Assembly (NCBI GenBank): GCA_027533425.1
Contig: JAPZUD010000006.1
Coordinates: forward strand, 1 to 64,000
DNA from: Beijerinckiaceae bacterium
GTDB lineage: Bacteria > Pseudomonadota > Alphaproteobacteria > Rhizobiales > Beijerinckiaceae
Reading direction: 5' to 3'
DNA length: 64,000 nt
Shown: positions 12,732-42,370 of the stretch, piece after piece
How the letters are laid out: every line of letters begins with the position of its first letter
Numbering within the stretch: position 1 is the stretch's first letter
Made by a program: the position numbers and the translations under genes
Notes under the pieces: model-generated
Database searches by the model: none
What the model was told of the DNA's origin: nothing
What the model saw: the letters and a program-made list of their open reading frames with translations, nothing else

Positions 12732-13006
12732 CGATTGATCAGCCACAATCCTAATCCTTCTTTCACCCTGGCGCACCGCGACCATGGAGATGCCCGGCGA
12801 CGAGAGCCTGGCGACAGCCTCAGGAATATCCCGATGCAGATAGCATTCGGCTATCCGGATTGGAGAGGCGAATTGCCTCAGCCATCCCACCCGGTCCCGG
12901 GCGACACCCGGCCGGATCGCATATTGGAACGATCCTGAATTGCAAGGCTCATGGCACCGTCTATATCGCTTGTCCATCCCTTTCCGCGTTCCCTGGCCCC
13001 TGAACA

Positions 13007-30602: not shown

Positions 30603-31610
30603 TCATTCGGCCGGCTGCGGAGCGGCATGGCCCGCCGGCCGCTTGCCCTTCATCACTTCCTCGACCCAGAGCGAGTGATGCTCCTTGGCCCAGTTGAGAT
30701 CGACCTCGCCGGAGCCCATCGCATCAAACGCGCCTTCCATGCCGACAGAGCCGATATAGATATGCGCGATAATGATGGCGATCATCACGAAGGACGTGGT
30801 GCCATGCAGCGTTGCCTGCCATTGCACGTGTTCGATCGATTCCGCTGTCGGGAAAAGCAGGTGCCAACCCGAAAGCGAGAGCAGGAAGCCTCCGACGACC
30901 ACGCTCCAGAAAATGATCTTCTGACCGCCATTGAAGCGCTTGGCGGGCGGATGACCCTTGCCGAGCAGACCACCACCGGCGGCAAACCACTGAAGATCGA
31001 CAGCGCTGGGGATATTGTCCTTCACCCAGATCAGGAAAGTCAGCAGCACACCTGCCATGAAGGCAAAGCCGACATAATTATGCACGAGCTTTGCAAAGCC
31101 GGCCCAGGCCGCGAAGGCCTCGGGGCCCATCACAGGCGCCAGCACCACCTTGCCGAAGGTGACGTTGATCCCGGTGATCGCCAGCACGATGAAGCTCGTT
31201 GCAGTCAACCAGTGGGTGAACCGGTCCAGCGCACCGAAGCGAAGGATCTTCATGCCCGACAGGCCGGCATCGATCCGGATCTTGCCGCGCATCATGTAGA
31301 AAACCACCAGCACGATGGCGATGCCGATCAGCGAGTAGGCGCCGAGCTTGGGCAGCGTCTCCTGGTTGAAGGCGCGCCAGTCACGGCCAGGCTGGATCAG
31401 GTTTGCTGCCTGCTTGTCCGGGATGGAAATGCGACCGGCAACCGGAGCACCCGGCTTGAGCGCCTGGAGAAGCTGCTCTTCCTTGACCGCCTGCGCCGTC
31501 GGATTGACGCTGGTCGGCTGCTGGGCGAGGGCGGGAAGGCTTGAAGCCCCGAGCAGGGCAACGAGACCGAAAGCGAGCGCACGAAACGCGGCGGAGAGTT
31601 TTGAAGCCAT
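30603..31610 (-). CDS. Formate dehydrogenase cytochrome b556 (gamma) subunit
   Basis: LRFGALDRFTHWLTATSFIVLAITG, FWSVVVGGFLLSLSGWHLLFP, ATLHGTTSFVMIAIIIAHIYIGSVGMEGAFDAMGSGEVDLNWAKEHHSLW. Confidence 0.92.
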   Translation of the reverse strand: MASKLSAAFRALAFGLVALLGASSLPALAQQPTSVNPTAQAVKEEQLLQALKPGAPVAGRISIPDKQAANLIQPGRDWRAFNQETLPKLGAYSLIGIAIVLVVFYMMRGKIRIDAGLSGMKILRFGALDRFTHWLTATSFIVLAITGINVTFGKVVLAPVMGPEAFAAWAGFAKLVHNYVGFAFMAGVLLTFLIWVKDNIPSAVDLQWFAAGGGLLGKGHPPAKRFNGGQKIIFWSVVVGGFLLSLSGWHLLFPTAESIEHVQWQATLHGTTSFVMIAIIIAHIYIGSVGMEGAFDAMGSGEVDLNWAKEHHSLWVEEVMKGKRPAGHAAPQPAE

Positions 31611-31678: not shown

Positions 31679-32275
31679 TCAGAGCGCCACGGTTTCCTTG
31701 TAGGCGACCTTCCATCCCCAGGCACCGGAGCCATAGCCGCGCTTGGCCACACGCTCCTTGTAGATCTGGGCGATGATGTCGCCATCGCCGGCCAGCAGCG
31801 CCTTGGTCGAGCACATTTCCGCGCAGAGCGGAAGCTTGCCCTCGGCCAGACGGTTGCGCCCGTACTTGTCGAGCTCGGCCTGGCTGCCATCGGCTTCCGG
31901 GCCGCCCGCACAATAGGTGCACTTGTCCATCTTGCCACGCGAGCCGAAGTTGCTGGTCTTCGGATATTGCGGTGCGCCGAACGGGCAGGCGTAGAAGCAG
32001 TAGCCGCAGCCGATGCAGAGATCCTTCGAGTGCAGCACCACCGCATCGGCCGTGGTGTAGAAGCAGCTCACCGGGCAGACCGACGCGCAGGGCGCATCGG
32101 TGCAGTGCATGCAGGCCATGGACACCGAGCGCTCGCCCGGCTTGCCGTCATTGATAGTCACGACACGCCGGCGGTTGATCCCCCACGGCACTTCATGCTC
32201 GTTCTTGCAGGCAGTCACGCAGGCGTTGCATTCGATGCAGCGGTCCGCGTCGCAGAGAAATTTCATGCGAGCCAT
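31679..32275 (-). CDS. Formate dehydrogenase iron-sulfur (beta, FDH3B-type) subunit
   Basis: CDADRCIECNACVTACKNEHEVPWGINRRRVV, CMHCTDAPCASVCPVSCF, CIGCGYCFYACPFGAPQYP. Confidence 0.93.
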   Translation of the reverse strand: MARMKFLCDADRCIECNACVTACKNEHEVPWGINRRRVVTINDGKPGERSVSMACMHCTDAPCASVCPVSCFYTTADAVVLHSKDLCIGCGYCFYACPFGAPQYPKTSNFGSRGKMDKCTYCAGGPEADGSQAELDKYGRNRLAEGKLPLCAEMCSTKALLAGDGDIIAQIYKERVAKRGYGSGAWGWKVAYKETVAL

Positions 32276-32290
32276 TGTTCACTTCCTCCC

Positions 32291-35260
32291 TTACGCGGCG
32301 CGGATCTGGCAGAGCGTGACCTTGGTTTCCTGCATCCCGGTGACGGGATCGTAGCCATAGGTCGTCACAGCGTTGACGCTTTCCCCGAGGACATACGGGT
32401 CCGTCCCCTTCGGATACTTGCCGCGCTGGTCCTCACCCTGGAACCAGCCGCCAAAGTGGAACGGCATCCAGGCAACACCCTTGCCGACACGCTCGGTGAC
32501 GAGCGCCTTCACGCGCGCCTTCGAGCCGTTCTCCGGACCGAGCACCCATACCCAGGCACCATCCCGGATACCGCGATCGGCGGCGTCGGCCGGATTGATC
32601 TCGACGAACATGTCCTGCTGCAACTCGGCCAGCCACGGGTTCGACCGGGTTTCTTCCCCGCCGCCCTCGTATTCGACCAGACGGCCGGAGGACAGGATGA
32701 TCGGGAATTCCTTCGCGATCCCCTTGTCGACAGCCGCCTTCTGCACCGTGAAGCCGATATTCGGCACGCGGAACTGGCGGAAATCCGGTCGGGTCGGATA
32801 TTGCGCAACAAGATCGGTGCGCGGCGTGTAGATCGGCTCGCGGTGGACCGGGATCGGATCGGGCAGGTTCCAGGCATTCGCACGGGCCTTGCCGTTCCCG
32901 AACGGGATACAGCCATGCTCGAGCGCAACACGCTGGATGCCGCCGGACAGGTCGATCGCCCACGACACGTTATCGGGTGCATTGCCGCCGATCCGTTCAA
33001 TCGTTGCCTTTTCGGCCTCCGTGAGGTCCTTGTCCCAGCCAAGGCGCTTCAGCATCCCGTAGGTGAATTGCGGGTAGCCGTCCTTGATCTCGGAGTCTTT
33101 GGAGAAGGAGCCCTCAGACAGGAGGTTGACCTTCTTCTTGGAACCATCGGCTTGCGGCTCTTCATATTCCACCCCGAACCGGGCGCGGAAGGTCCCGCCG
33201 CCATCCTTGACATGCAGGTTGGTGTTGTAGAGCTGGTGCGTGCCCGGATGCCGGTATTCCGGCGTCCCCCAGCACGGCCAGGGCAGGCCGTAATAATCGC
33301 CGGCGATTTCGGCCGGTGCATCCTTCGGGGCGCGCAGCGAGACCAGGTCAAACTTTTCCTGGTGCTTCATATGCGCCTTGAGACGCTCCGGAGACTGGCC
33401 GCAATAGCCGGTCGACCAGCCACCACGATTGATCTCGCGCAGGATCGACTCGGGTTCCGGCTCCATGCCGTATTTGCCCTTCACCATCGTGATGTTCTTG
33501 AACATCCGGTCGGCGAAGCCGAGCTTCTGGGCGAACTGATGCAGCACCCAGTAGTCATTGGCGCTCTCGAAGATCGGGTCGACGACCTTTTCGCCCCACT
33601 GGATCGAGCGATTCGACGCCGTACGCGAGCCTGCGCACTCGAACTGCGTGCAGATCGGCAGCAGATAGGTGCCGTTCTTGCGGTTCGAGATATGGGCGAA
33701 GGTGGTCGGATGCGGGTCAGCGACGACCAGCAGCTCGGCCTTCTCGAGGCCCTTCACCATTTCCGGCATGCGGGTGACGGTGTTGCCCCCATGACCCATC
33801 ACGAAAACGCCCTTCACGTTGTCGCGCTGGGAAACCTGATCCTTGGGCAGGCTCACGGCATCGAACCAGCGGGTCGACGGAATGCCGGGCACGCCCATCA
33901 TGGACGTTTCCTTGCCATCCGCCCCCTTCGTGACATCGAAACGGCCCTGCAACCAGGAAATCTCGGTTTCCCAGACACGCGCCCAGTGGGCCCATGCGCC
34001 GGCATCGAGCCCGTAATAGAGCGGCAGCGTCGTCACATCGAGGCCGAGATCGGTCGCGCCCTGCACGTTGCAATGGCCGCGGAAGATGTTTGCACCATTG
34101 CCGACCCCGCCGACATTGCCGGTGGCGAGGAGCAGGATGCAGAAGGCGCGGACATTCGCCGTGCCGACAGTCTTCTGGGTGGCGCCCATGCACCAGATCA
34201 GCGTGGAGGGCTTCTCGGTGGCGAAGGTCTTGGCGACGCGCTCGAGCTGGGCACCGGGAATGCCGGTGACACGCTCGACTTCCGCCGGGGTCCACTTCTC
34301 GACCTCCTTGCGGACCATGTCCATGCCGTAGACGCGCTGCTGGATGAATTCCTTGTCTTCCCAGCCGTTCTTGAAGATGTGGTGCAGCATGCCCCAGATC
34401 ACCGGAATATCGGTGCCCGGACGCATCCGCACATATTCCGTCGCATGCGCCGCGGTACGGGTCATGCGCGGATCGATGACGATCATGTTGGCGCGGTTGA
34501 CTTCCTTGCCGCTGAGCACGTGCTGCAGCGAGACCGGATGCGCTTCCGCCGGGTTGCCGCCCATGATGATCATGGTCTTGGCCTTGCGGATATCGTTGTA
34601 GGAATTGGTCTGCGCGCCATACCCCCAGGTGTTCGCGACACCGGCCACCGTGGTCGAGTGGCAGATGCGGGCCTGATGGTCGACGTTGTTCGTGCCCCAA
34701 TAGGCCGCGAACTTGCGGAACAGATAGGCACCCTCGTTCGAGAATTTCGCCGAGCCGAGGAACCAGAGCGAGTCAGCGCCGGACTTCTCGCGGATCTCCA
34801 GCATCTTCTTGGAAATCTCGTCGAAAGCGACGTCCCACGAGATGCGCTGCCATTCGCCATTGACGAGCTTCATCGGATACTTGATCCGGCGCTCGCCCTT
34901 GACCAGCTCGCGCACTGCCGCGCCCTTGGCGCAATGCGTGCCACGGTTGATCGGGCTTTCCCAGGCCGGCTCCTGGCCAACCCAGACGCCTTCCTGGACC
35001 TCGGCCTTCACCGTGCAGCCCACCGAGCAATGGGTGCACATGTTCTTCTTCATCTCGACCGGCTTGCCGGCAACCGGCATCTTGGCCTGGGCCTCGCGGA
35101 CCGAGCCGAACCCGATTGACCCGATGGCCGCGAGCCCGCCGGCCGCGAGGCCGGACCGGCGCAGGAATGCGCGACGATCGAGCCGTTCGGCACCGGTGGC
35201 GGCCAAGGCTGCAGCGAGGCCCTGGCGGGCGGCTTGCCCTTCCTTGCGCTTGATCAGCAT
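32291..35260 (-). CDS. Formate dehydrogenase alpha (Mo-bisMGD) subunit, TAT-exported, Cys type
   Basis: DRRAFLRRSGLAAGG TAT motif; CTHCSVGCTVKAEV; VDHQARICHSTTVAGVANTWGYGAQTNSYNDI with Cys at the Mo/Sec position. Confidence 0.95.
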   Translation of the reverse strand: MLIKRKEGQAARQGLAAALAATGAERLDRRAFLRRSGLAAGGLAAIGSIGFGSVREAQAKMPVAGKPVEMKKNMCTHCSVGCTVKAEVQEGVWVGQEPAWESPINRGTHCAKGAAVRELVKGERRIKYPMKLVNGEWQRISWDVAFDEISKKMLEIREKSGADSLWFLGSAKFSNEGAYLFRKFAAYWGTNNVDHQARICHSTTVAGVANTWGYGAQTNSYNDIRKAKTMIIMGGNPAEAHPVSLQHVLSGKEVNRANMIVIDPRMTRTAAHATEYVRMRPGTDIPVIWGMLHHIFKNGWEDKEFIQQRVYGMDMVRKEVEKWTPAEVERVTGIPGAQLERVAKTFATEKPSTLIWCMGATQKTVGTANVRAFCILLLATGNVGGVGNGANIFRGHCNVQGATDLGLDVTTLPLYYGLDAGAWAHWARVWETEISWLQGRFDVTKGADGKETSMMGVPGIPSTRWFDAVSLPKDQVSQRDNVKGVFVMGHGGNTVTRMPEMVKGLEKAELLVVADPHPTTFAHISNRKNGTYLLPICTQFECAGSRTASNRSIQWGEKVVDPIFESANDYWVLHQFAQKLGFADRMFKNITMVKGKYGMEPEPESILREINRGGWSTGYCGQSPERLKAHMKHQEKFDLVSLRAPKDAPAEIAGDYYGLPWPCWGTPEYRHPGTHQLYNTNLHVKDGGGTFRARFGVEYEEPQADGSKKKVNLLSEGSFSKDSEIKDGYPQFTYGMLKRLGWDKDLTEAEKATIERIGGNAPDNVSWAIDLSGGIQRVALEHGCIPFGNGKARANAWNLPDPIPVHREPIYTPRTDLVAQYPTRPDFRQFRVPNIGFTVQKAAVDKGIAKEFPIILSSGRLVEYEGGGEETRSNPWLAELQQDMFVEINPADAADRGIRDGAWVWVLGPENGSKARVKALVTERVGKGVAWMPFHFGGWFQGEDQRGKYPKGTDPYVLGESVNAVTTYGYDPVTGMQETKVTLCQIRAA

Positions 35261-35270
35261 GGCGTTTTCC

Positions 35271-35483
35271 TCAGTAGCGATTGGTTGCGTAGTAGGTCTT
35301 CACGTGGTCGGTCTCGCGATAGCGCGCCTTCTTCTTGTCGGCGTCGTTCTCGCTGGCTGCCGCCGGCACGACAGCGGCCCCGGTCGCGGCGGCCGCAGCA
35401 GAAGCGCCTGCGAGGCCAGCCTGCAGGAAGCCGCGGCGGGAGCGGTCAATCTTCTCGGGATTGTCGTCTTTTTTCGTGCTCAT
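35271..35483 (-). CDS. FDH-region TAT-signal micro-protein
   Basis: MSTKKDDNPEKIDRSRRGFLQAGLAGASAAAAATGAAVVPAAASENDADKKKARYRETDHVKTYYATNRY. Confidence 0.85.
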   Translation of the reverse strand: MSTKKDDNPEKIDRSRRGFLQAGLAGASAAAAATGAAVVPAAASENDADKKKARYRETDHVKTYYATNRY

Positions 35484-36307
35484 GCGCTTGCTCCTTGGCT
35501 GGCGTCGATCGCATCGGTTTGTTCAGTCACGTCAGGATCCAGCGCGAAGGCCTCGCGCTCGATTCGCATGAATTCGAGGCCGAGTGCCCCGACCCTGCGG
35601 TAGAAATTCGCGGCATCGGCCTTGGCGAGGTCGGCAAAGAACCGCTCGGCCCAGGGCTCGATATGCCGCGCGAAGAAACGGTTCTGCTCGGTCACCTCGG
35701 CGACGAAGCGGCGGGCAATAAGCCCCGCCATCGTCTCGAGCAGGAACCCGAGATGGTCCTCCGGTTCCGACATGCCTTCGGAGCGCTCGACACCCAGACG
35801 GCGCATGTCCTGCCGCACCCGCACAAGCGGCCGCTCATACAGGAAACCTGTCAGGTAATACGAGGCATAGGGGAGCAACTCGCCCCGCCCGACACCGATG
35901 AAAAGGTCGAAATGCTCGCGCGCGATCCTGTCTGCGCCCGGCACGTCGGCCGCCTCGGCAATCGCCATGAGGGCCTGCCCCAGAGCGCTGTCATCCCCCT
36001 GCAGGCGCCGGAGGTCGATCAACACGCGCTCGTCCGGCACTTTCAGCAGGAGATGCGAAAGGAGCAGGTACAGCCGCGAGCGCGCCTCATCGATCGCGTC
36101 GAGCGGCGGGGCTTCGTCCGAATGCGGATAAAGGTCGGGGCGCAGGACATGGCGGGGAACTGAAGTGACGTTCTCGACGGCAATGACCCGCTCCGCAGGC
36201 ACACGCGTCCAGATGGAAACCGAGGGCTGCGCGATGCCAAGCAAGCGCGAGAGGGCAGAAATGCCACCTACCGCGCGAATGGCTTCCTGAAGGCCTGCGT
36301 CTCTCAT
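35480..36307 (-). CDS. TorD-type redox enzyme chaperone with N-terminal YdaS/Cro-like HTH
   Basis: N-term LQEAIRAVGGISALSRLLGIAQPSVSIWTRVPAERVIAVENVTSVPRHVLRPDLYP; TorD part REHFDLFIGVGRGELLPYASYYLTGFLYERPLVRVR...EDHLGFLLETMAGL. Confidence 0.85.
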   Translation of the reverse strand: MRDAGLQEAIRAVGGISALSRLLGIAQPSVSIWTRVPAERVIAVENVTSVPRHVLRPDLYPHSDEAPPLDAIDEARSRLYLLLSHLLLKVPDERVLIDLRRLQGDDSALGQALMAIAEAADVPGADRIAREHFDLFIGVGRGELLPYASYYLTGFLYERPLVRVRQDMRRLGVERSEGMSEPEDHLGFLLETMAGLIARRFVAEVTEQNRFFARHIEPWAERFFADLAKADAANFYRRVGALGLEFMRIEREAFALDPDVTEQTDAIDASQGASA

Positions 36308-36399
36308 CCCGAACCCAAGTTTGCGGCTTTTGCCGTCTTCTAAACTGGAATGGTTCGAGAGTATAGGATGGCCCTATGACGCGCAAGCATATTCATTAT

Positions 36400-37056
36400 T
36401 CAGTTTGGCAGCGCACCGCCATGCCTCCGGCGAGGGAAGATAGTTTCAAGGCTTTCATCGGCGGTTTCCTTGGCAACCATCGGCTCCTCGTCGGAATCCG
36501 CCGGGATCGCGACAATTTGCCCCGCAGCCGGCGAATCAACCACCGGAACCGGTTCGGATAGCTCGGCGCGTGTTTCGTCCTGATTCGCGGCAGGGGTTTC
36601 GGCCGGCAGCCCGGCCGCTTCATCGTCCGCCGGCGCCTCCGGATCCTTTTCGCCCATGATCCGCCGCAGCATGGTCGAGGGGTCAAACCCGGCCTCCATA
36701 GGACCGAAACCCGGCATGGCGTTGGGATCATTGAAATCCCACGCATATTCGGCAAATCGATCCGGCGCGCTCAGGATCGGGTCCAGCACCCACATCTTGC
36801 GCAGCGCGGCATTGCGCAACGCTTCCGGCACACCCTTCTGCAGGAACTGCGTGAAATCGCTCTCCGACGTCAGGGCCTCCAGCGGCGTGAGGGTCGAGAT
36901 GTCGAATTCGGGCTCTGCCTCGACGGGAAGCGCAGGCTCGCCCTCTGCCGCCGCAGACACCGATGACGGATCATCCGGAACCGGTGCGCCGGTCTCCGGC
37001 TCCGGCTTCAGCTTCCGCCGCGACCAGCGACTGAGAAATCCTTCGCCCTGGCTCAT
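36400..37056 (-). CDS. DUF3306 domain-containing protein
   Basis: GEGFLSRWSRRKLK...LTPLEALTSESDFTQFLQKGVPEALRNAALRKMWVLDPILSAPDRFAEYAWDFNDPNAMPGFG. Confidence 0.88.
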   Translation of the reverse strand: MSQGEGFLSRWSRRKLKPEPETGAPVPDDPSSVSAAAEGEPALPVEAEPEFDISTLTPLEALTSESDFTQFLQKGVPEALRNAALRKMWVLDPILSAPDRFAEYAWDFNDPNAMPGFGPMEAGFDPSTMLRRIMGEKDPEAPADDEAAGLPAETPAANQDETRAELSEPVPVVDSPAAGQIVAIPADSDEEPMVAKETADESLETIFPRRRHGGALPN

Positions 37057-37059
37057 GGC

Positions 37060-37557
37060 CTAGCCTTCCTCGCCCATCGGGCGGCGCGCAAGCCGGTTCG
37101 GATCGGCCCGGTCACGCTTGCGCTTGAAGAATTCGCGCTCGACATGGTGCGTATCGACGAATTGCGCCACGAAATGGGCGATTTCCGGCACCATCGGCAC
37201 GGTATCGACAATGTTCGTACCGGTTTCGGTATGCGCCTCGCCCTCTGCCGGATCAGCTGTCACGGCAACCAGCATCAGCCCCGCCTCGGGATGCTCCTCG
37301 CGCATCGCCACCCAGAGCTTGGGCGCACCGCTCATCATATTGTCGCGGTAATTCGCCGTATCCACCGAGGCGAGGGTGATCCGCGCTGCGCCGGCATAAT
37401 AGCGCTCGCCATCCGGCAGGGTCTCGATCAGCGTCATCGGCGCGGCCTCCGGCAGACCGGGCAGGACAGCCACGGGCGACCAGGTATGGTCGATCCAGGG
37501 GCTGGCGGCCTTGCGCTTCTCGACGATGACGCCCACGGCGATGCTGTCCTCGGCCAT
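37060..37557 (-). CDS. DUF3305 domain-containing protein
   Basis: IAVGVIVEKRKAASPWIDHTWSPVAVLPG...YRDNMMSGAPKLWVAMRE; start trimmed to 37557. Confidence 0.88.
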   Translation of the reverse strand: MAEDSIAVGVIVEKRKAASPWIDHTWSPVAVLPGLPEAAPMTLIETLPDGERYYAGAARITLASVDTANYRDNMMSGAPKLWVAMREEHPEAGLMLVAVTADPAEGEAHTETGTNIVDTVPMVPEIAHFVAQFVDTHHVEREFFKRKRDRADPNRLARRPMGEEG

Positions 37558-37568
37558 TGTTCGCCTCC

Positions 37569-38585
37569 TCAGCCGGCATCCGGCGCCAGCGGCAGGCCGG
37601 CAATCAGGTTCTGTGGCTTGATGCGGACCAGCCGGTCCGCTGTGGAGCCCAGCAGCGCGAAAGCCTTCCTGCCGCGCTTGTCGGCGCGGATCCGGGCATG
37701 ATCGGGCAGGGTGAAGGTGAAGAGGGCCAGCAACCGCGCCCGCTGGTCGTCGCTCAGGGCTTCGCCGTTCCAGACGCGGTTGCCGATCGCCGTGCCCTCG
37801 GCATCCAGCGCCACGAACCACGCAAAGCGCTCCTCGGAGAAGGAATCGACCGGCGTGAAAGCGATCTCGATTCCGAGCAGATGCCGGATCCAGCGCGTCA
37901 TCGCCCGCGCCAGGGCAGGCCGGCCATGCGTGGGATTCGTCAGGTCAAAGACCAGATCATGCGCATCGCTGCGGCCGTGATAGCCCGCCGCCGTCTCGGG
38001 CGAGAGCACCTCCAGTTCCGATACGGCCGGCCCGCCGAGCATCGAGAGCAGGGGCGAATGGTCGCGCGCATGCTCGTGCTGCTCGATCGCCTCCTGATCG
38101 GCGAGGAGGACCGAACCCTCGTGGACGGTCACGCGCTGGGTGCGCCAGAAGCATTCGGCGGCGCGCAGCACATGGGCATCCTCTTCCTCGTCGAACGCGT
38201 TCCGCGCAACAAGATGCACCAGTTGCTGGAGGAAGAGCGGCGGAATGCCGGAAAGGTCGCCCCGGACCAGCGAGAGATAGGCGGCCTCGAGGGTCGGCGC
38301 GGCGAGGATCCGGTCCCGGAAGGCGAGGAACAGCCCGAGATTCTCGCGCGCATCGGCATCGGCGATCAGCGCGATCTCATCGGCTGCCACCACCTGCCGC
38401 GGCGTCTCGAGCAGGCTGGCATGCAGGCCGCGCTCGACAGGGCAGGCCTCCGCCGGAGGCACCAGTTCAGGCCGGGCGAGATAGGCGCGCAGGAAAGCAT
38501 CCGTCGCCACGAGACCGCCTCCCTCGATCCGGTCGACAAGGTGATGGCCGCTCGCCACCCAGAAATCAGGCCGTTCCGGAATCAT
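37569..38585 (-). CDS. DUF6352 family protein
   Basis: PDFWVASGHHLVDRIEGGGLVATDAFLRAYLARPEL; position in FDH cluster. Confidence 0.75.
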   Translation of the reverse strand: MIPERPDFWVASGHHLVDRIEGGGLVATDAFLRAYLARPELVPPAEACPVERGLHASLLETPRQVVAADEIALIADADARENLGLFLAFRDRILAAPTLEAAYLSLVRGDLSGIPPLFLQQLVHLVARNAFDEEEDAHVLRAAECFWRTQRVTVHEGSVLLADQEAIEQHEHARDHSPLLSMLGGPAVSELEVLSPETAAGYHGRSDAHDLVFDLTNPTHGRPALARAMTRWIRHLLGIEIAFTPVDSFSEERFAWFVALDAEGTAIGNRVWNGEALSDDQRARLLALFTFTLPDHARIRADKRGRKAFALLGSTADRLVRIKPQNLIAGLPLAPDAG

Positions 38586-39127
38586 GTCCTGTCCGTTCCC
38601 TTCAGGCCGGCCATGCCGGCAAGATCGAGTTGCTCGTCGGGCGCCTCGTCGGGCACCTCCATGAAACTGAAGGCCCGCGAATGCCGTTCATCCGTTCCCG
38701 GCAGCAGGGTCCGGAAGCGCTCGACGATCTCGCCATCCTCGACCACCCGGTGGATCGCGACAAGCACGCCGGGCCCGGGCGCCGCCAGTTCCTCGGCATA
38801 GGCAACCTCGCTTTCCGCCGCCGGCAGGGCCGCCGCGAGATCGGGCGCGCCGCAGCGTGCCACAAGTTGCTCGGCCAGCTGCCGGACCAGCAGGGACCGT
38901 TCGAGATCGGTGGCTTCGACGATCGTCGCCAGGGTTGACCAGCCGAAGCTCTCCACGCCCAGCAGGCCGGAGCGAAAGGCCGAGCGTTCCTTGCCGAGCA
39001 GCCCGTCGACCGGCTGTTCCCAGAACAGGAACGTGCCCGGCACCGCCCACTCGCCGGGCTCGGCCGCGCGCGTGAACACAAAGGCATCGGAGGGATCGAG
39101 GCGGATCGTGCGCAACAATTTCGGCAT
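38582..39127 (-). CDS. DUF6505 family protein
   Basis: MPKLLRTIRLDPSDAFVFTRAAEPGEWAVPGTFLFWE; upstream in-frame ATG at 39145 lies inside the inverted repeat, so 39127 is preferred. Confidence 0.7.
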   Translation of the reverse strand: MPKLLRTIRLDPSDAFVFTRAAEPGEWAVPGTFLFWEQPVDGLLGKERSAFRSGLLGVESFGWSTLATIVEATDLERSLLVRQLAEQLVARCGAPDLAAALPAAESEVAYAEELAAPGPGVLVAIHRVVEDGEIVERFRTLLPGTDERHSRAFSFMEVPDEAPDEQLDLAGMAGLKGTDRT

Positions 39128-39129
39128 CT

Positions 39130-39398
39130 TAGGGCGAAAACTCATAAAGGAGGCGCATTTGATGGGAGTTTCGGGGTGAAAATGGCCGGAACCGGCGCGC
39201 AGCCTTGACGTCCGTCAGGGCAAGCGTTGGTTTCGAGGCAGTTTCTCTCCGAAACCCCACCGGAGGCGCGGTGAATTTGAATCATCTTTCGCGTCCTTTC
39301 CCTCCCAAACCCGACGGTTTGCTTCGGGAAAGCCCACGAAACCTGATTGGCAAATTCCCTCGCGTCAAATGTCGCCTCCTTTATGGGTTTTCGCCCTA
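39130..39398. repeat. TA-bounded non-coding element with ~33-bp terminal inverted repeats (MITE candidate)
   Basis: Left tagggcgaaaactcataaaggaggcgcatttga (39130-39162); right tcaaatgtcgcctcctttatgggttttcgcccta (39365-39398); reverse complements apart from 1 substitution and 1 indel. Confidence 0.7.
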
Positions 39399-40139
39399 GC
39401 CCCGCGGTTCGTTGAGCAGCGGATCGAACCAGTCCGGCCGCGCCAGGGCGGGCACCAGCTTTTCCCGCGCCTGCGCCTCGCCGCCCGGGCCCTGGATCAG
39501 CAGGTCGCCATTCTCGTCGATGCCGCGCCGGCCCCTGGACTCACCCTTCTCGAGGAACGAGAGATAGCGTGGCCCGATGCCGGAAAAACCGCGCTCCTGC
39601 CAGGAATCGACCTCGACGAGAAAATGCCGCGAGAACGAGGCGGCGAATGCCGGCGGGTTCCACGCCTCGAACCCCTCGTCATCCAGCGTGGTGATTTCGG
39701 GCGCAAGGCCGACGCCGAGTTCGCGCACGCCCCCGGCCCGCACCATCGCGCCGAAGACCAGCCAGTCCGGCGTCGCCTGGTCCTCCGCCCCCGGCGGATG
39801 GCCGAGTCGCCCCCCGCCGACCAGCGCGCCATCGAAATAGAGCGAGCCGGGATAGCGGATCGTGATCGGCTTTTCCGGCGGAGAGAGCACCGAAAGCGCC
39901 TCCGCGAGGGCATTCATTCCGGCAAAGAAGATTTTCCGTGCCAGCCATAATGGCTCTTCGGGTTCGAGCACCAGGGCGAATTCGATCAGCTCGAAACGGC
40001 CGACATAGTAGAGGCTGCCCGCGCCGCGATGGGCATCCCCCGTCGCGCTGGCCCCGGCCACGGCCGCCTGGAAGGCGTCTTCGCGCTCGCGGAGGCGGAT
40101 CGGGGTGATCAGGGGCGGAAAACGTGCAATATCGTCCAT
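39396..40139 (-). CDS. Biotin/lipoate ligase-like protein (DUF4444 type) of FDH cluster
   Basis: MDDIARFPPLITPIRLREREDAFQAAVAGASATGDAHRGAGSLYYVGRFELIEFALVLEPEEPL...; start trimmed from 40682. Confidence 0.75.
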   Translation of the reverse strand: MDDIARFPPLITPIRLREREDAFQAAVAGASATGDAHRGAGSLYYVGRFELIEFALVLEPEEPLWLARKIFFAGMNALAEALSVLSPPEKPITIRYPGSLYFDGALVGGGRLGHPPGAEDQATPDWLVFGAMVRAGGVRELGVGLAPEITTLDDEGFEAWNPPAFAASFSRHFLVEVDSWQERGFSGIGPRYLSFLEKGESRGRRGIDENGDLLIQGPGGEAQAREKLVPALARPDWFDPLLNEPRG

Positions 40140-40262
40140 GGTCCAGCTTTCGAGGCCGTTGTTGTTCCGGAAGGCCTGCCGGGGATCGGGAGGTGCCCCG
40201 AAGATCCCCCCTTGCTTCCGGCGAGACATTCTTATTTGAAGACATTCCAAAAAAGACAAGAG

Positions 40263-40281
40263 CGGGTGATCAAGACACCCG
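40263..40281. promoter_or_regulatory. Inverted repeat in the divergent FDH-cluster promoter region
   Basis: CGGGTG-atcaaga-CACCCG, 23 nt upstream of ATG 40304. Confidence 0.45.
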
Positions 40282-40303
40282 ACCGGAGAGGAGCCGGCAC
40301 CGC

Positions 40304-42370
40304 ATGCCCCCCAGCGCACCCGAAGGCACGCAGATGGACGGCAAGGCGCCGCAGATCGTGGTCTGCTCCTGCGAGAAAACCTTCGTTCCCGACCTCGCGG
40401 CCATGGCGGCCGGCCTCGGCCTCGCCGAAGGTTCGATCGCGGGCTGCTCGAATCTCTGCGGCGCCGAGCAGGACCGGCTCGCCCGGCTGGCCGCCGGCAC
40501 CGGCGGGCTGGTCGTTGCCTGCCGGCAGGAAGAGGCGACGCTCCGCGGCGTGCTCGAGGATGCCGGCTATTCCGGCAGCCAGACCTATCTCGATATCCGC
40601 AATGCCGGTGGCTGGTCGACCGAGAGCGCCGCAGCCGGGCCGAAAATGGCGGCTTTGCTCGCCGGCTCGATGCTCGAGCCACCGGCCCTGCCCTTCGTCA
40701 CGCTCGAGAGCCAGGGCGTGACCCTTGTCTACGGCACCGATGCCACGGCCATCGATGTCGCCCGGCGCCTCGCCGACACGCTCGACGTCACGGTCATCCT
40801 GCGCAGCCCGAAAGAGGTCGCGCCGCCGGCCAGACGGGAATTCCCGATCGCGCGCGGCCGCATCCGCCAGGCCAGCGGCCATCTCGGCGCCTTCCAGCTG
40901 GTCGTCGACGACTTCGCGCTTTCGCTGGCCTCCTCCCGTGCGGCTCTGGCTTTCGGTGATCCGCGCGACCAAGCCCGCTCGACCTGCGACCTCATCCTCG
41001 ATGTCACGGGAGACCGGCCGCTTTTCCCGGCCGATGACCTGCGGGACGGCTATCTCCGCGCCGACCCGCGGGATCCGGTCGCGCTCGACCGGCTGGTGAC
41101 CCGCGCGAAGGATCTCGTCGGCACATTCGACAAGCCGAAATACATCACCTTCGATTCCGGCCTCTGTGCCCATTCGCGCTCGACCATCACGGGATGCACG
41201 CGCTGCCTCGAGATCTGCCCGACAGGGGCCATCACACCGGCGGGAGACCATGTCTCGATCGATCCGCAGATCTGCGCCGGCTGCGGCGGCTGCGCCTCCG
41301 TCTGCCCGACCGGCGCGGCCAGCTATGCGCTGCCGGCGACGGATTACGTCCTGAAGAAGGTGCGGACCATGCTCCGCGCCTATGACCAGGCTGGCGGCCG
41401 TGATGCGACTCTGCTGTTCCACGATGCGGAACACGGCGAACCGATGATCGATGCCCTTGCCCGCTTCGGCGATGGCCTGCCTGCGCGCGTCATCCCCGTT
41501 GCACTCAACGAGGTGACACAGCTCGATCTGGCGGAAGTCGCCGGCAGTTTCGCCTACGGCGCCGCCGCCATCGCGGTGTTGACACACGCGAAACCAAGGC
41601 ACGACATCACCCCGCTGGTCAGGCTCGGCGAAACGCTGGCAAGCCTGCTCCCGGCGCTCGGCCATGCGCCGGAAGCCTTCGCCGTGATCAGCACCGACGA
41701 TCCCGATGCCCTGCTGGCGGGCCTCCGCGCCCTGCCGTCCGGCAGCAAGACGGGCAAGGCCAGCTTCCTGCCGCTCGGCGCGAAACGCCCGCTCACCATG
41801 CTCGCCCTGCGGGAATGGCATGCGGTCGCACCGGAGCGGCCGGCAGTGGTGCCGCTCGCCAAAGGCGCCGGCTTCGGCAAGGTCGAGGTCAACGCGGAAG
41901 GTTGCACGCTCTGCCTGTCCTGCGTCTCGACCTGCCCGGTCGATGCGCTCAGCGCCAATCCGGACCGGCCCGAACTGCGCTTCCAGGAGGATCTCTGCGT
42001 GCAATGCGGCCTCTGCCAGGCCACCTGCCCGGAAAAGGTCATTACCCTCGTTCCGCAACTCGATTTCACCCGGATCAATGCCAGCCCGGTCACGCTGAAG
42101 CACGAGGAACCCTATCCCTGCGACAAATGCGGCAAGCTCTTTGGCACGCGCTCGACCATCGAGAAGATCAAGACCAAGCTCGGTGGCAAGCACTGGATGT
42201 TCTCGGGCCCGAATGCCGACCGGCTGAAGCTGATCGGCTATTGCGATGATTGCCGCATCGAGACGGCCACGCTGCAGGGCTTCGACCCCTATGCCGGCCC
42301 GGAGCGCCCGCGCGTCCGGACGACCGAGGATTACTTCCGGGCCCATCCCGAGGATCCGGACAAGAGCTGA
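40304..42370 (+). CDS. Multi-[4Fe-4S] ferredoxin-like protein of FDH cluster
   Basis: CTRCLEICPTGAI, CAGCGGCASVCPTGA, CTLCLSCVSTCPVDA, CVQCGLCQATCPEKV; further Cys motifs at both ends. Confidence 0.9.
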   Translation: MPPSAPEGTQMDGKAPQIVVCSCEKTFVPDLAAMAAGLGLAEGSIAGCSNLCGAEQDRLARLAAGTGGLVVACRQEEATLRGVLEDAGYSGSQTYLDIRNAGGWSTESAAAGPKMAALLAGSMLEPPALPFVTLESQGVTLVYGTDATAIDVARRLADTLDVTVILRSPKEVAPPARREFPIARGRIRQASGHLGAFQLVVDDFALSLASSRAALAFGDPRDQARSTCDLILDVTGDRPLFPADDLRDGYLRADPRDPVALDRLVTRAKDLVGTFDKPKYITFDSGLCAHSRSTITGCTRCLEICPTGAITPAGDHVSIDPQICAGCGGCASVCPTGAASYALPATDYVLKKVRTMLRAYDQAGGRDATLLFHDAEHGEPMIDALARFGDGLPARVIPVALNEVTQLDLAEVAGSFAYGAAAIAVLTHAKPRHDITPLVRLGETLASLLPALGHAPEAFAVISTDDPDALLAGLRALPSGSKTGKASFLPLGAKRPLTMLALREWHAVAPERPAVVPLAKGAGFGKVEVNAEGCTLCLSCVSTCPVDALSANPDRPELRFQEDLCVQCGLCQATCPEKVITLVPQLDFTRINASPVTLKHEEPYPCDKCGKLFGTRSTIEKIKTKLGGKHWMFSGPNADRLKLIGYCDDCRIETATLQGFDPYAGPERPRVRTTEDYFRAHPEDPDKS

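Follow-up and report, generated by a model that had tools for sequence, protein, structure and literature searches.

A TorD-type formate dehydrogenase chaperone fused to a YdaS/Cro-type HTH, with a matching predicted operator in its own promoter, in Alphaproteobacteria

In many Alphaproteobacteria, a maturation chaperone of the TorD/DmsD kind for formate dehydrogenase (FDH) appears to have acquired a working Cro/YdaS DNA-binding head. One such fusion lies in the window, i.e. the whole analysed stretch of 64,000 nucleotides from a Beijerinckiaceae bacterium. The protein very probably binds its own promoter, judged from the comparison of loci, and is likely to be an autoregulator acting through a dyad operator. 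The original prediction that the fusion directly regulates fdh transcription thus gains strong comparative support: the promoter dyad accompanies the HTH, is missing where the HTH is missing, and covaries with residues that read DNA.

Results

Domain architecture of the fusion protein

The fusion gene starts with the ATG at 36307 and encodes 275 amino acids in a single frame (Table 1). Since this frame is uninterrupted and the same architecture recurs in many genera and families, the protein is considered a true fusion and not the product of a frame error. Its first ~60 residues had been predicted to form a YdaS/Cro HTH and the remainder a TorD-family maturation chaperone, and both assignments were borne out. 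In Pfam, residues 6-61 matched YdaS_toxin (PF15943) with an E-value of 1.7e-13 (50.6 bits against a curated cut-off of 30) and residues 104-225 matched Nitrate_red_del (PF02613, TorD/NarJ family) with 3.4e-32 (111.8 bits against a curated cut-off of 22.2). Sequence matches in the PDB assigned the N-terminal part to Xfaso1 Cro (3bd1) and the C-terminal part to DmsD/TorD. An AlphaFold2 model calculated from a 56-sequence alignment was confident for both domains, with a mean pLDDT of 89 and blocks at 90-98 over residues 1-60, and the HTH is present in this predicted structure. With Foldseek, the head superimposed on Xfaso1 Cro 3bd1 with a TM score of 0.80 and an rmsd of 1.6-1.8 Å, corresponding to the Cro HTH fold, and P22 Cro (1rzs) ranked lower among the matches. 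The body matched DmsD (3efp) and YcdY (9m26) with E-values of about 6e-5 to 2e-4, which corresponds to an all-helical TorD-like fold.

Helix 2 of the HTH comprises residues 16-23 and the recognition helix residues 27-31 (QPSVS). Two motifs are conserved in the chaperone domain, namely YxTGF (residues 151-155) and EPEDH (residues 181-185). The E-P-x-D-H stretch of TorD/DmsD chaperones serves leader binding. Across 56 fusions, P182, E183 and D184 were invariant and H185 nearly so. Among close relatives, dN/dS of residues 1-60 was 0.014-0.18, similar to or below that of the chaperone part; the HTH is under purifying selection. When the window's genome was searched with the fusion (E 1e-3), the only match was the fusion itself.

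Table 1. Features of the fdh region in the window
Feature	Position	Strand	Basis or remark
Predicted operator, dyad ATAGG-GCCAT-CCTAT (minus-strand reading)	36363-36377		56-70 bp upstream of fusion ATG, between DUF3306 and fusion gene
Likely core promoter around dyad: TTGCGC (36381-36386), TATACT (36360-36365), 15-bp spacer	36360-36386	(-)	Sequence and promoter scoring in relatives
HTH-chaperone fusion gene, YdaS/Cro-type HTH and TorD/DmsD-type FDH maturation chaperone	35480-36307	(-)	Pfam, PDB sequence matches, AlphaFold2, Foldseek
HTH domain, residues 1-61	36125-36307	(-)	Pfam, AlphaFold2, covariation scan
TorD/DmsD-like chaperone domain, residues 72-257	35537-36094	(-)	Pfam, conserved motifs, Foldseek
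Formate dehydrogenase region TAT-target peptide (TIGR02811)	35271-35483	(-)	4-bp overlap with fusion gene, directly downstream
FdhA, molybdopterin formate dehydrogenase alpha subunit, own twin-arginine (RR) leader	32291-35260	(-)	Profile match
FdhB-like 4Fe-4S subunit	31679-32275	(-)	Reading of translation
FdhC-like cytochrome b subunit	30603-31610	(-)	Reading of translation
DUF3306 gene, directly upstream of fusion	36400-37056	(-)	Profile match
DUF6352 and DUF6505 genes, upstream of DUF3305/DUF3306	37569-39145	(-)	Profile match

Genomic context

On the minus strand, the genes are ordered DUF6505, DUF6352, DUF3305, DUF3306, a gap of 92 bp, the fusion, the TAT peptide, FdhA, the 4Fe-4S subunit and the cytochrome b subunit. 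This agrees with the predicted location directly upstream of the FDH TAT peptide and alpha subunit, the TAT peptide being a separate gene and FdhA following with its own leader. MobB- and MoeA-like genes, recognised by reading of their translations, lie downstream of the cytochrome b subunit, and FdhD- and MobA-like genes converge on the cluster from the opposite side. No ydaT was found beside the fusion gene, whose neighbours are DUF3306 and TAT peptide/FdhA. The arrangement is well kept among relatives: FdhA is encoded downstream in 86 of the 87 distinct fusions with sequence, and a DUF3306 match was found upstream in 78 of 87. FdhA is presumed to be both the client of the fusion chaperone and the gene under its control. 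At the window locus and at 37 other fusion loci, DUF3306 ends with the conserved peptide RR(R)HGGALP right before the stop codon.

Distribution and phylogeny

Relatives were collected in a first scan of species genomes, which gave 34, and then in surveys by order, class, family and phylum. Together these yielded 96 fusion loci, of which 88 are distinct, and 79 HTH-less homologues. All 88 distinct fusions belong to Alphaproteobacteria, where they are spread over many genera and families, nearly always between DUF3306 and fdhA. Non-alphaproteobacterial homologues in the phylum sample matched the chaperone part only.

In a tree of the chaperone domain (moderate branch support), most fusions fell into one large clade that also includes members without HTH, so the head has probably been lost repeatedly. 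Five fusions (L014, L015, L112, L113 and L114) form a second class with the helix QANVWHW/QGHVWHW; they branch apart from the main clade and probably represent separate fusion events. Three further fusions (L016, L181 and L194) carry degenerate HTHs and are possibly en route to losing the head, or contain sequence errors of draft genomes.

A dyad upstream of the fusion genes

Upstream of the fusion gene, ATAGG-N5-CCTAT was found in the window and in most near relatives. In the first set, ATAG-N7-CTAT stood just upstream of every fusion gene with a normal QPSVS-type head and nowhere in the DNA examined of loci without HTH. In the full set, 87 of the 88 distinct fusions had a dyad 26-141 bp upstream; the sole exception was L016 with its degenerate HTH, and the dyad was kept in the other two degenerate cases, L181 and L194. 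The type of dyad followed the helix. QPSVS/QPTVS was accompanied by ATAG-N7-CTAT, most QPAVS/QPAIS by ATAA-N7-TTAT and the second HTH class by ACAAA-N4-TTTGT, the latter being common to all five of its members.

Of the 79 homologues without HTH, none had an ATAG/CTAT or ACAAA/TTTGT dyad in the 400 bp upstream. With the relaxed pattern ATAR-N7-YTAT, three had a match in this range, including one symmetric ATAA/TTAT that lies in an AT-rich stretch. The difference in dyad presence between fusions and HTH-less homologues is significant with p far below 1e-20 by a statistic that ignores relatedness. Those HTH-less homologues that are nested within the fusion clade are likewise without the dyad, and in one genome (G171) a dyad-bearing fusion locus coexists with a TorD copy that lacks both HTH and dyad (L042, L069). 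Two fragments had been proposed earlier for binding tests: 36308-36400 includes the dyad and 40140-40303 has none. The promoters of L180, L110 and L111 contain two dyads each, 26-47 bp apart, which could permit cooperative binding.

Covariation of HTH residues and operator bases

With Ser or Thr at residue 29, base 4 of the half-site was G on both sides in 65 of 69 proteins. Ala at this position went along with symmetric ATAA-N7-TTAT in 11 of 14 cases; two others were asymmetric and one (L157) had G on both sides. The association of residue 29 with base 4 was significant (Fisher, 2.6e-8 with every exception counted and 1.8e-11 for the clear cases). In an unbiased scan, each variable HTH column was compared with each half-site base in 80 class-I fusions, similar sequences being down-weighted (effective number 33). 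After background correction, the top three pairs of residue and base were 29 and 4, 17 and -1, and 32 and 5, with z values of 8.3, 6.1 and 5.5, scores which are inflated by relatedness. All three residues face the DNA; 29 lies in the recognition helix, 32 at its end, and 17 where helix 2 begins. The recognition helix and the start of helix 2 are the positions where Cro/434-type HTHs read DNA. On the tree, the change between Ser and Ala at residue 29 took about six steps and the change of base 4 four to six. Independent pairs on the tree agreed or showed no difference, their number being too low for a sign test.

Position of the dyad in the promoter

In the window, TTGCGC and TATACT enclose the dyad, and the latter, which is the likely -10 hexamer, has bases in common with it. 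Relatives have better hexamers in the same place, e.g. TTGCCG-16-TATAAT. A strict sigma-70 scan of 35200-40400 flagged no promoter, and a looser, simple promoter scorer was used across the relatives. By this scorer, 63 of the 87 loci had their dyad overlapping the promoter span that scored best, compared to 38% for random positions; 12 dyads were placed upstream of the -35 and another 12 downstream of the -10. Most dyads, including that of the window, are therefore located as would fit repression by occlusion, and the two groups of 12 leave room for activation at some loci. Cro represses by occlusion. YdaS of prophage CP-933P binds operators and represses promoters (PMC8630535).

Sites elsewhere in the genome

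CATAGG-N5-CCTAT has one exact match in the 3.75-Mb genome of the window, i.e. the fusion promoter, and ATAG-N7-CTAT occurs twice. The second site, ATAGCATTCGGCTAT at 12840-12854, lies upstream of a petA-like Rieske gene. Four very close genomes share this site unchanged, but six further genomes of the genus have no counterpart at that place; thus, it is probably no target. The fusion promoters of nine genomes of the genus besides the window's all contained the dyad, and one of these genomes had no other copy. The fusion promoter was the sole dyad site common to all ten. A wider regulon was rejected, as genome-wide dyad counts in 16 fusion genomes were no higher than those of a reversed-pattern control. 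With no conserved second target found in these comparisons, the fusion is apparently a dedicated autoregulator with a single target promoter.

Discussion

The proposed mechanism starts from a fusion that would bind, presumably as a dimer, to the 15-bp dyad overlapping the core promoter of its own gene. Bound there, it probably acts as a repressor of its own operon, which comprises chaperone, TAT peptide and fdhABC. Occupancy of the chaperone by unloaded FdhA or by its twin-arginine leader may then change DNA binding, and enzyme assembly would feed back on transcription as it does via BirA or apo-TorC/TorS. This last step is put forward with reserve: that the client modulates DNA binding has somewhat less than an even chance in our estimation. 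An effect of client occupancy on DNA binding is conceivable because the client-binding domain with EPEDH and the HTH share one polypeptide, and sensing of apo-FdhA is plausible because the TorD core is intact.

Such feedback through the client could take two forms. Either the chaperone with unloaded FdhA represses, and a shortage of cofactor or export capacity would switch off FDH synthesis, or the free chaperone represses and is titrated off by its client. We hold this coupling to be possible, at slightly short of even chances. It is in line with the intact TorD core including EPEDH, with the position of the fusion gene just ahead of FdhA and with the precedents of BirA (PMC2384007) and apo-TorC/TorS (PMC11727998), although the sign of the effect is not deducible from sequence. 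Alternatively, the fusion could be a plain autorepressor whose HTH holds the level of chaperone and FDH constant, indifferent to the client, the fusion tying the repressor dose to the chaperone dose. This is the same mechanism minus the client step and is considered a real, if rather doubtful, possibility. The operator evidence fits it equally well, Cro-type proteins autorepress without a ligand, and no link between the two domains emerged here beyond the shared polypeptide; yet the HTH is fused to a client-binding domain instead of being encoded by a small gene of its own, and many families have kept the fusion, which is at most suggestive.

The fusion is unlikely to be an activator of the operon in place of a repressor. 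The dyads placed just upstream of the -35 (12/87, e.g. in L041, L043 and L045) would suit such a role, but the 63 of 87 within the -35/-10 span, the window's among them, fit occlusion, and YdaS represses its promoters (PMC8630535). It is very improbable that the HTH serves protein contacts after a loss of DNA binding and that the dyad belongs to another regulator: three fusions do carry degenerate HTHs, of which L016 is without and L181 and L194 are with the dyad, but operator presence tracks the HTH, operator bases covary with residues of helix 2 and the recognition helix, two HTH classes go with two operators and the HTH is under purifying selection.

The fusion, for which autorepression remains the preferred reading and client sensing a tentative addition, combines features of several known systems. 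With TorD/DmsD/NarJ chaperones (PF02613), especially those of fdhGHI operons (PMC4464133), it shares the chaperone domain, the fold, an EPxDH-like stretch and an operon with TAT peptide, fdhA and DUF3305/DUF3306; unlike them, it carries a predicted DNA-binding head together with an operator predicted to match it. A survey of NarJ-family chaperones names fdh operons with DUF3305/DUF3306, and its text contains no HTH, fusion or DNA binding (PMC4464133). YdaS/Cro-type repressors (PF15943; P22 Cro, Xfaso1 Cro 3bd1 and YdaS of CP-933P, PMC8630535) resemble the fusion in their HTH fold, in dyad operators over promoters, which are predicted for the fusion, and in repression, which is expected for it. 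The fusion differs from them in its attached chaperone and its fdh operon context, in lacking a YdaT partner and in its apparently single target promoter.

In BirA group II ligases, an N-terminal HTH gives the repressor function (PMC2384007). As in the fusion, the HTH is joined to a maturation factor for a protein client; BirA regulates a related operon and the fusion probably does so too, its operator being derived from comparison. However, BirA has enzymatic activity and a small-molecule corepressor, whereas the fusion is not known to have a ligand, and the folds are unrelated; the two are likened in their way of working and are not homologous. Apo-TorC feeds back on torCAD through TorS (PMC11727998), and as in the circuit proposed here, the assembly state of a respiratory enzyme acts on its own operon. 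That system relies on a sensor kinase together with a response regulator, whereas a single protein may suffice for the fusion.

In a full-text literature search with most subscription journals outside its reach, no description of the fusion was found. Known domains and known regulatory logic are joined here in what appears to be an undescribed way. To our knowledge, redox-enzyme chaperones have been thought of as proofreading factors only. The fusion suggests, as a tentative proposal that we would not yet back at even odds and hold a shade more loosely than client modulation itself, that a molybdoenzyme chaperone directly senses how far its client has been assembled and itself acts as transcription factor for the operon encoding that client; a single protein would then connect transcription with cofactor loading and Tat export. 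With a matched operator, this widespread form would open assembly-coupled transcription of FDH to a direct test that needs a single protein and a 92-bp promoter fragment. A specificity code for Cro-type HTHs is suggested by the naturally occurring pairs (Ser/Thr29 with G4, Ala29 with A4, residue 32 with base 5 and residue 17 with base -1), and the dyad offers a simple genomic marker for fdh operons under fusion-type control.
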